From Prevotella sp. 10(H) (GTDB lineage Bacteria; Bacteroidota; Bacteroidia; Bacteroidales; Dysgonomonadaceae), in the NCBI RefSeq assembly GCF_000711235.1, contig NZ_JOMI01000003.1, positions 62,001-126,000 of the forward strand: DNA of 64,000 nucleotides. The letters run 5' to 3'. A program made the position numbers and the translations under genes. Below, piece by piece: positions 697-21,523 of this stretch (its first letter is position 1; the number at the start of each line of letters is the position of its first letter). The notes under the pieces are model-generated. The model was not told where the DNA came from, did no database searches, and saw nothing but the letters and a program-made list of their open reading frames with translations.

Positions 697-1502
697 AATG
701 ACAATGCTAACAAGTCGAGAGGAGCATTTTGCGCATCTTCACTCCATAGATATATTTCACTCGGAGAGCTGACTTGTTCTATATTTTTAATATACTCCTG
801 TAATCTGATGATAAGTAAATCATCGGCTTTTCCTGTAATGTATACAATGTCTTCCAATTGGTCGAATCCACAGATTTCCCACAATTTTAATATAAAATAT
901 GCCTGATTGGCTGCCGGTTCGTTTTCATAAGTCAGGCTATGTACAAGCTTGTTCCCTGCAAAGCAAATAACATCCATGCTATTCTCATGGAAGTTAAGGT
1001 GCATTTTGGATTTGTTTGGATTTGCAGCACCCCTGTTTTCGAATAAATTTATAAGCAAGGTGGAATGATGAAAAAAATGAGGATCCCACAAATTACGGGA
1101 AAGGAATCCGAATATTTCATCATTTATGCTATATAAAGTAACTATATCCTGTTTTTCGATAAGGTCAGACAGAATATGGCCTTCTTGCTGTGTATGCGTC
1201 AGATTATATAATTGATCTTTTTCTTTCACCATGAAATATGGAGCGGGAACCAGGTCGTAATCGGACGAAACAATAATTACATTGGTTTGTTTAAATTCCT
1301 GAGTAAGGAAACTCAACTCGAAAATAATCCGCTGGATATTGACAGCCAGATTGTCTTTTTCAGAGAAAGACGTTTCGCGCAGACAATAGTTTCTTCCGTC
1401 TTCCGGATCGGATATGGAGAATGTAAAACCATGCGGCCTTATACGGATTGAAAGGACATATTTTTCCGAGTGTCCTAAGTCTATACTTTCTGGTAAGAAC
1501 AT
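693..1502 (-). CDS. DUF3822 family protein
   Basis: A 269-residue protein of the Bacteroidetes DUF3822 family, whose function is unknown. It has no signal peptide or membrane segment, so it is probably cytoplasmic. The visible sequence alternates short beta-strand-like stretches (for example KYVLSIRIRPHGFTFSISD near the start) in the way of an actin/RNase H-like fold, but I see no catalytic motif. It is the first gene of a two-gene unit with rsmD, a pairing that is common in this phylum. A -7 promoter element lies about 20 bases upstream of its start. Confidence 0.75.
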   Translation of the reverse strand: MFLPESIDLGHSEKYVLSIRIRPHGFTFSISDPEDGRNYCLRETSFSEKDNLAVNIQRIIFELSFLTQEFKQTNVIIVSSDYDLVPAPYFMVKEKDQLYNLTHTQQEGHILSDLIEKQDIVTLYSINDEIFGFLSRNLWDPHFFHHSTLLINLFENRGAANPNKSKMHLNFHENSMDVICFAGNKLVHSLTYENEPAANQAYFILKLWEICGFDQLEDIVYITGKADDLLIIRLQEYIKNIEQVSSPSEIYLWSEDAQNAPLDLLALSL

Positions 1503-18390: not shown

Positions 18391-20034
18391 ATGAAAATGA
18401 AGTATTTTTTAGGTTCTCTACTGAGCCTCATGATCAGCATTTCGGCCTTAGCGCAAAATAATCCCGGCGCGGATTATTTGAGTTTAGGAGAATTAAAACT
18501 AGCGAAAGAATATTTTCAGAAGCAATCTTCGGCAGAGGCTAATTATTATCTTGGAGAAATTGCTTTCCAGGAAGGTAATATGGCTGAGGCAAAATCTTAT
18601 TATGAAAAAGGTTTGGCCGCTAACCCTGAATCAGCTTTCAGTGCAATCGGTCTTGCTAAATTGCAATTGAAATCAGATCCTAAAGGAGCTGAAGATCAAT
18701 TGAAAGATATTCAGAAAAAAAATAAGAAAGATGTAAATGTTATACTTGCTATTGCTAAAGCATATCTGGACAATGGTATGAAAGAAAAAGCAATGGAAAG
18801 ATTGCAGGATGCGCGCAAAGCTGACAAAAAATCTCCGTATATCTATATCTTTGAGGGAGATATGCTGGCTAAAGAAAACAAGCCGGGAGATGCAGCAATG
18901 CAATATGATCAGGCTATTAACTTCGATGCAAATTCCGTATTGGCATATATGAAAGGTGCTAAAGTGTATGAATTTATCAACCGCAAGACAGCAACTGACA
19001 TGTTGAAGAAAGCGATTGAAATAAACCCTGAATACAGGATAGCATATAAAGACCTTGCACAAATCTCTTACCGCGATGGTTTTTATCCGGAAGCGATCGC
19101 AGCTTATAAGGAATATTTCAAAGGTGGAGATTATACAATAGAAGATATAACATATTACGCATCTGCGGAATATTTCTCTAAAAACTACAACGAAGCTAAG
19201 ACTCTTATTCAGGAAGGACTTGGAAAAGACGCTAATAGCTTCGTACTGAACCGTCTTTCTCTATATACAAGCAACGACCTCAAGGATTATCCTGCAGCTG
19301 TTAGCGCCGGCGATAAATTCTTTAGCATACAGAGAAAAGATACAGTTAAATATCTGAAGCAAGACTATTTGGCTTATGCTAACTCATTGAGTGAAACAGG
19401 AAACAAAGCTAAAGCAATTGAACAATACAAGAAAGTAGCGGAGATGGATCCGGCAAATGTCGATGTATACAAAGAAATTGCTACTATCTGTGCAAACGAA
19501 AGAATGTATCCTGAAGCAGCTGAATTCTACAAAAAATATATAGAACTTGGTGGTGAAAAAATCGATGCACAGGATTATTATCAGCTAGGTCTTTATTATT
19601 CTAATGCAGGCCGCACAGCAAAGAATGATACTATCAACATGACGGCAGATCAGGCTAAGGCTAAGTCCGTTGAATTCTTTAAACTGGCCGACGGTGCATT
19701 CGCAACTGTATCTGAAAGAATGCCTGACAGCTATCTTGGTTATTATCAGAGAGCACGTGTAAACTTCGAACTTGACCCTGAAAGTGAAGCCGGTTTAGCA
19801 AAACCACATTACGAAAAAACTGTTGAAGTAATCTTGGAGAAAGGTGATACGGATAACAACAGAATCCTGATAGAAGCTTACAGCTATTTGAGCTATTATT
19901 ACTACCTGCAATTCGATAAATCAAAGAAAGCAGAAGATAAAGCCAATGTAAAAATGTATGCAGAGAAAGTTCTTGAACTTGACCCTGAGAATGCAAACGG
20001 TAAAGCTTTATTCGAGTTTGCTAACGCAAAATAA
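18391..20034 (+). CDS. Secreted tetratricopeptide repeat protein
   Basis: A 547-residue periplasmic TPR protein. The signal peptide (1-21) ends ISALAQ. About ten TPR units follow, with the expected A-x-x-Y-x-K and P-x-x-x-x-A positions (for example AKSYYEKGLAANPESAF and AIEQYKKVAEMDPANVDVY). It is the last gene of the exbB operon and ends at a strong terminator. TPR proteins at this position are a stable feature of Bacteroidetes TonB operons; the partner is not known. A scaffold for the ExbBD-TonB complex or the PstS-like protein is a reasonable guess. Confidence 0.85.
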   Translation: MKMKYFLGSLLSLMISISALAQNNPGADYLSLGELKLAKEYFQKQSSAEANYYLGEIAFQEGNMAEAKSYYEKGLAANPESAFSAIGLAKLQLKSDPKGAEDQLKDIQKKNKKDVNVILAIAKAYLDNGMKEKAMERLQDARKADKKSPYIYIFEGDMLAKENKPGDAAMQYDQAINFDANSVLAYMKGAKVYEFINRKTATDMLKKAIEINPEYRIAYKDLAQISYRDGFYPEAIAAYKEYFKGGDYTIEDITYYASAEYFSKNYNEAKTLIQEGLGKDANSFVLNRLSLYTSNDLKDYPAAVSAGDKFFSIQRKDTVKYLKQDYLAYANSLSETGNKAKAIEQYKKVAEMDPANVDVYKEIATICANERMYPEAAEFYKKYIELGGEKIDAQDYYQLGLYYSNAGRTAKNDTINMTADQAKAKSVEFFKLADGAFATVSERMPDSYLGYYQRARVNFELDPESEAGLAKPHYEKTVEVILEKGDTDNNRILIEAYSYLSYYYYLQFDKSKKAEDKANVKMYAEKVLELDPENANGKALFEFANAK

Positions 20035-20060
20035 AAGCAACCGATATATAATATTTAAGA

Positions 20061-20095
20061 ATAACCTGAACTCTATGAGTTCAGGTTATTTTTTT
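20061..20095 (+). terminator. Intrinsic terminator of the exbB-tonB-TPR operon
   Basis: A perfect 12-bp stem (ATAACCTGAACT / AGTTCAGGTTAT), with a 5-base loop and a run of T at 20089-20095. Confidence 0.9.
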
Positions 20096-20127
20096 GTAAA
20101 AAGAATGATTTCGTAGAGAAAAAGACG

Positions 20128-20135
20128 TATCTTTG
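20128..20135 (+). promoter_or_regulatory. metK promoter -7 element
   Basis: TATCTTTG is an exact TAnnTTTG match. A weak -33 element (TTTC near 20109) lies 19 bases upstream. Transcription should begin near 20142, just before the riboswitch P1 stem. Confidence 0.6.
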
Positions 20136-20141
20136 CATCCA

Positions 20142-20200
20142 ATTAAGTGGATAGATTTGTATCGATTGCAACCACATGAAAAAATGCTAAAACATTTTCT
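20142..20200 (+). promoter_or_regulatory. SAM-II-type riboswitch upstream of metK
   Basis: The leader shows the SAM-II signature in order. A 4-bp P1 stem is formed by GTGG (20147-20150) and CCAC (20172-20175). The loop between them contains GATTTG (20154-20159), and ATTGCA (20165-20170) lies directly before the 3' strand. After the stem come an A-rich stretch and GCTAAA (20186-20191). A pseudoknot can be drawn by pairing the TTGC region with GC-TAA, and TGT (20158-20160) with ACA (20192-20194). The second pairing is the least certain part. SAM-II binds S-adenosylmethionine and lowers expression, which suits metK, the SAM synthetase. No terminator follows, so control would be at translation. 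Confidence 0.7.
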
Positions 20201-20254
20201 ATACTGCATTATACATTTCCTTCCTGTTTTTATTAACAGAAAAAATTAAGCACA

Positions 20255-21523
20255 ATGAGTTATTTATTTACATCTGAGTCTGTTTCGGAAGGACATCCGG
20301 ATAAGGTCGCAGATCAGATTTCCGATTCCCTATTGGATGAGTTCTTGGCATATGATGCCAATTCGAAAGTAGCTTGTGAAACTTTAGTCACTACAGGCCA
20401 GGTTATATTGGCGGGAGAGGTAAAGTCGAAGGCTTATATCGATATTCCCGAAACAGCCAGAAAGGTAATAGAGCGTATCGGCTACACAAAAAGTGAGTAT
20501 CAGTTTGAAGCACAATCATGCGGCGTTTTGTCGGCCATACATGAGCAATCGGATGATATCAACAGGGGAGTAGACGGTAAATCCGACCCGATGGATCAGG
20601 GAGCGGGAGACCAAGGCATGATGTTCGGGTATGCAACGTCCGAAACTGATAATTATATGCCGCTTGCACTGGACTTATCGCATGCCTTATTATTGGAATT
20701 ATCTGCAATCCGTAAGAATGAATTGGATTTAATGCCTTATCTACGCCCCGATGCAAAATCGCAGGTAACTATCGAATATGACGATAACGGTACGCCTATG
20801 CGTATAGATACTATAGTTATATCTACCCAGCATGATGAATTTGGGGATGATAAGACGATGCAGGATAAAATCAAAGCAGATGTTATCAATATCCTTATTC
20901 CACGTGTAAAAGAGAAATATAAATTCAGAGATGATATTACGAAGTTATTTACAGACGATATTACCTATCATGTAAATCCTACAGGCCGTTTCGTTATCGG
21001 AGGCCCCCATGGTGATACAGGGCTTACAGGCCGCAAGATCATTGTAGATACCTATGGCGGAAAAGGAGCGCACGGAGGTGGAGCTTTTTCGGGGAAAGAC
21101 CCGTCGAAGGTAGACCGTTCTGCAGCATATGCATCGCGTCATATTGCAAAAAATCTGGTAGCAGCTGGTATATCCTCTGAAATATTGGTGCAGGTTTCGT
21201 ATGCTATCGGTGTGGCAAAACCGATGAATATTTATGTAAATACTTATGGCAAGAGTAATACCGGCCTTACAGACGGTGAGATAGCCAAAAAGGTGGAAAA
21301 GATATTCGATATGCGTCCGAAAGCTATTGAGGAAAGACTGAAGCTCAGGAACCCGATATATGCAGAGACTGCCGCATACGGTCATATGGGACGTGAGCCG
21401 CAAGTGGTATCTAAGACATTCAAATCCCGTTACAATCCGGAAGGAATTACGCGTGAAGTAGAATTATTCACGTGGGAAAAACTGGATTTTGTAGATACTA
21501 TAAAAAAGGAATTTAATTTGTAA
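20255..21523 (+). CDS. metK: S-adenosylmethionine synthetase
   Basis: Makes SAM from ATP and methionine in the cytoplasm. The 422 residues show all family signatures: the ATP/Mg site [20 protein letters not shown] at residues 5-24, the motif [12 protein letters not shown] at about 117-128, and the glycine-rich P-loop-like [19 protein letters not shown] near residue 275. It is slightly longer than E. coli MetK (384 residues), with inserts typical of Bacteroidetes. It is transcribed alone from its own promoter with a SAM-II-like leader, so its product probably feeds back on its own synthesis. Confidence 0.97.

Follow-up and report, generated by a model that had tools for sequence, protein, structure and literature searches.

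A SAM-II (long loop) riboswitch ahead of metK in Bacteroidota and a leader strand that co-varies with its aptamer

Riboswitches in Bacteroidota often show no visible trace of the usual outputs, an intrinsic terminator or a hidden Shine-Dalgarno sequence. The leader of the SAM synthetase gene metK in Prevotella sp. 10(H) raises the question of which regulatory element it carries and how such an element would act on the gene. A covariance-model search (cmscan, Rfam 15) of the whole window, i.e., the 64-kb stretch of DNA analysed here, returned a single match at the gathering threshold: the SAM-II (long loop) riboswitch aptamer, RF01726, at 20141..20200 on the forward strand. The match scored 64 bits against a gathering threshold of 44 (E = 5.2e-10) and spanned model positions 1-60 of 60, untruncated, with the conserved core visible in the alignment and one modelled pair being non-standard. 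The first-pass annotation had proposed a SAM-II-type riboswitch in front of metK and had named RF00521 (SAM_alpha) as the model by which to check it. The riboswitch is borne out, both by the covariance model and by conservation ahead of metK in relatives, but the family that matches is RF01726: RF00521 had no match above threshold in this genome, and the same model was also silent in all control genomes. SAM-I (RF00162) had no match in the genome, which carries exactly one SAM-II.

The motifs named in that annotation are all found where it placed them and in the right order (20147-20191, forward strand). According to the sequence and the RF01726 alignment, the P1 stem is formed by GUGG (20147..20150) and CCAC (20172..20175). 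Between these strands lie GATTTG (20154-20159) and ATTGCA (20165-20170), the latter containing UUGCA (20166..20170; invariant TTGCAACCA in relatives), which we take, by comparison with the published SAM-II structure, to be the 5' strand of the P2 pseudoknot. An A-rich loop separates CCAC from GCTAAA (20186-20191), which falls within the P2 3' strand UGCUAAA (20185..20191), likewise invariant in relatives. The locus has both the P1 stem and the invariant core of GATTTG, TTGCAACC and UGCUAAA, and an identical core occurs in ~170 loci. Sequence evidence thus supports a SAM-II-type aptamer upstream of metK, for which SAM binding is predicted.

The aptamer match ends 54 nt before the start of metK (20255..21523, ATG at 20255) and lies on its sense strand. 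The gene codes for a SAM synthetase of 422 aa, with MetK homologues of 57-89% identity in other genomes. A few bases 5' of the aptamer is a putative Bacteroidetes-type -7 promoter element, TATCTTTG (20128..20135, forward strand), which had been noted in the first-pass annotation and which the genus alignment shows to be kept in nearly all members. With the promoter assigned by consensus, the RNA would start at ~20140-20143, placing the riboswitch at the extreme 5' end of the metK mRNA. A strong intrinsic terminator (20055-20097, a 13-bp hairpin and then T7) closes off the tetratricopeptide-like gene upstream (18391-20034), so that metK forms a transcription unit of its own.

The element is widespread among relatives. 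RF01726 was found in 51 of 61 related genomes, our own included, with one above-threshold copy each, and in 63 of the 395 genomes of a phylum sample, all but one from the same class; some of the latter matches were stretched to >100 nt by loops. A pattern scan of named genomes yielded at least 119 stretches, nearly all from Bacteroidales or Bacteroidota. The gene directly downstream was metK in 171 of 172 core-pattern loci, 170 of them assigned by script and the other being L107, where the contig end cuts the gene yet the start of MetK is visible (ATGAGTTATTTATTC, MSYLF). Bacteroidota metK genes without the element also exist. This conservation, together with the score of 64 bits (E = 5e-10), argues against a chance resemblance without riboswitch function; nothing in its favour was found, comparison with relatives rules it out, and we consider it exceedingly improbable.

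Several matches depart from this arrangement. In one MAG (L057, 2127-2230), a SAM-II of the RF01726 type lies ahead of an MFS transporter rather than metK, making this a candidate methionine or SAM-related transporter. Four loci from other families (L230, L231, L228 and L238) have SAM-II before metK in which inserted sequence separates GATTTG from ATTGC or P1 from the P2 3' strand, resulting in matches of up to >100 nt with scores near the Rfam cut-off. A weak SAM-II/SAM-V-like match (31.9 bits) precedes a MetY-like O-acetylhomoserine sulfhydrylase gene in L234 (~1074-1130, minus strand). It contains GCTAAAAAGGTA and, after it, the nearly complementary TACTTTTTTAGC, and may be a further aptamer that carries an anti-P2 arm. 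The relative L052 has a second, weak match (32.7 bits), which was discarded, as it looks like a terminator region rather than an aptamer.

The element itself is not new, because SAM-II in Bacteroidetes is already published. The first-pass annotation had implied that its presence there was a surprise; however, as early as 2005 SAM-II (then the metA element) was noted in B. thetaiotaomicron and others of the Bacteroides group (Corbino et al., PMC1273637), Bacteroidetes are also among the SAM-II carriers of Barrick and Breaker (2007, PMC2258182), and “SAM-II long loops” are listed for “Bacteroidetes, marine” in Weinberg (2010, PMC2864571), with an Rfam family of their own (RF01726). With the latter (PMC2864571), our element shares the full-length sequence and structure model, the phylum and the place before a SAM-metabolism gene, and its aptamer shows no differences. 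The aptamer and its gene are ordinary for the phylum, and a plain annotation suffices for them. What is new here is the proposed expression platform, and for SAM-II long loops the main text of Weinberg (2010, PMC2864571) describes none.

Related riboswitches differ from this one in several respects. Alphaproteobacterial SAM-II (RF00521) resembles it in its P1 and P2 pseudoknot, in a promoter just upstream of P1 and in a SAM pathway gene, yet differs in that its model does not match here. Many alphaproteobacterial SAM-II carry intrinsic terminators 3' of P2 (Corbino et al. 2005, PMC1273637), whereas none is seen in this leader, and neither is the hiding of a Shine-Dalgarno sequence as in the metA SAM-II of S. 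meliloti. SAM-V (PMC6061858) is similar in its H-type pseudoknot, its nearly identical binding site and a P2a adjoining P2, but masks a Shine-Dalgarno sequence directly after P2, whereas here another 54 nt follow before the start codon, and the P2a helix is weak and shows weak covariation.

What the leader does contain is a strand complementary to the aptamer itself. In duplex predictions, and when the leader in the window is folded to minimum energy without constraints (program without pseudoknots), the 5' half of the aptamer (GGATAGATTTGTATCGATTGCAA, 20149..20171) pairs with an arm in the metK leader (CTGCATTATACATTTCCTTCC, 20204..20224, both on the forward strand) that is its collinear, imperfect complement. 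A small hairpin, CUGUU/AACAG (20224..20239, forward strand), predicted by folding and conserved in the genus, lies between arm and start codon. The window's own duplex is bulged and its whole leader is no better folded than shuffles (z -0.84; program without pseudoknots); the case for the arm therefore rests on the comparison across leaders, in which complementarity is matched by species. Clearer pairs are found elsewhere, such as GGAGAGATTTGACTGATTGC with GATCAGTCAGCTCCTCC in L009, and arms GGCAAGCAGCCTTCTC in L153 and AATCAAATCTCC in L021. The antisense copy of the aptamer 5' half ends mostly ~20-50 nt upstream of metK (median from arm end to metK, 36 nt). Other Bacteroidota families have a second strand 5' of the arm, of up to 12 bp, that is complementary to the P2 3' strand, for instance AAAATGCTAAAG/CTTTAGTATTTT, with a compensated change to AAAGTGCTAA/TTAGCACTTT. 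Compensated changes between families include AAUGCUAA with UUAGUAUU or UUAGCAU, and AAGUGCUAA with UUAGCACUU.

Kinship among loci lowers their effective number, and cluster representatives were therefore used. Among 55 of these, the duplex between aptamer and own leader had an energy of -16.1 kcal/mol. Replacing that leader by those of other genes gave -11.8 (p = 6e-9), and reversing it gave -11.6 (p = 3e-8). For 80 mutually dissimilar representatives, leaving out the P2a strand (the first 10 nt), own duplexes were stronger than length-matched swapped ones (-15.3 versus -13.1; 0 of 2000 permutations). After correction for composition by subtracting the pairing of shuffled arms, -4.2 kcal/mol remained with the own partner and -1.9 with swapped ones (0 of 5000 permutations, 80 dissimilar leaders). 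In ensemble folding, 49% of the bases of the aptamer half were paired with the arm, versus 32% with shuffled arms (p = 1e-7), the window reaching 56%. Since own partners exceed swapped ones even after composition correction, the arm has changed together with the aptamer: as compared across these sequences, a leader strand has kept its complementarity to the aptamer 5' half while both changed, as in an anti-aptamer platform. An A/C change in the aptamer (GATTGC/GCTTGC) and the corresponding leader strands (CAATC/CAAGC) went in the same direction (p ~0.05), but was not significant on representatives. A hairpin between AUGC of P2 and a downstream GCAU in Bacteroidales is detectable but was set aside as weak (0.69 versus 0.54 in shuffles). 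Among 24 permutations it came first outside the genus and second within it; ungapped stems gave only p = 0.016. It is probably part of the longer pairing.

Our combined findings suggest, with a probability of roughly 0.7, a SAM-II riboswitch with an anti-aptamer arm, in which the SAM-free hairpin leaves metK ON and the SAM-bound state, with the arm released, turns it OFF. When SAM is scarce, the downstream strand that mirrors the sensor probably unfolds the aptamer: its 5' half and the arm would form a long, imperfect hairpin, and the A/U-rich stretch ahead of metK would remain open. When SAM is abundant, it would stabilise the P1/P2 pseudoknot, which would exclude pairing with the arm and set the pyrimidine-rich arm free, switching metK OFF. 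The SAM-bound state is taken as OFF because this is the established logic of SAM riboswitches and the gene codes for SAM synthetase. The released arm may act by masking the start region or as a loading site for Rho. With the aptamer locked away, the start region was predicted to be unpaired at 0.48 with the own arm and at 0.51 with shuffled arms (p = 2e-4), and this slightly stronger masking is a weak sign of translational control. Ribosomes of Bacteroidota make little use of Shine-Dalgarno pairing.

The alternative fate of the arm within the same model, a C-rich, G-poor rut site at which Rho would terminate transcription in the SAM-bound state, is possible though less likely than not. Leaders of SAM-II metK genes have C at ~0.27 and G at ~0.16, versus 0.19/0.19 in other leaders (p = 2e-14); the skew is absent from metK leaders that lack the aptamer. 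Nonetheless, an arm complementary to the G-rich half of the aptamer would be skewed in any case, and the skew is thus not independent evidence for Rho; judged from sequence, the leader composition appears to be explained by this complementarity. A further reading keeps the same aptamer but reverses the polarity, with the SAM-free hairpin and a U-rich tract forming an intrinsic terminator so that SAM turns metK ON. It draws on the at least 6 T within 9 nt after the arm in 88% of leaders of the genus, and on this genus-only tract hangs a small chance of reversed polarity. Outside the genus, however, this holds for 11% of representatives, versus 10% at any position in the same leaders; the hairpin is bulged and A/U-rich; a scan of 20000-20330 found no intrinsic terminator (G+C-rich hairpin and U run) between aptamer and metK; and it is implausible that SAM would promote expression of the enzyme that makes it. 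We therefore regard this reading as unlikely.

Control via a leader peptide is less likely still. An AUG in the P2 strand (20184; median distance to metK 89 nt across loci) opens a frame of 21 codons (20184-20249) whose stop is 5 nt before metK, yet in 168 leaders this frame 0 was no longer than frame 2 (medians of 20.5 versus 21 codons) and stood in random phase to metK (59/47/62), and in some leaders a stop follows after 3 codons. The leader peptide was rejected on these grounds, its coding not being conserved in relatives.

Returning to the anti-aptamer arm, no prior description of one that co-varies was found in the literature searched, a body with most subscription journals outside its coverage. 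We lean towards a SAM-II platform that is Bacteroidota-wide, in which a near full-length antisense of the aptamer 5' half would compete with SAM, and which would employ neither a terminator nor Shine-Dalgarno masking. The co-varying arm offers a concrete, mutable handle on riboswitch function in Bacteroidota.
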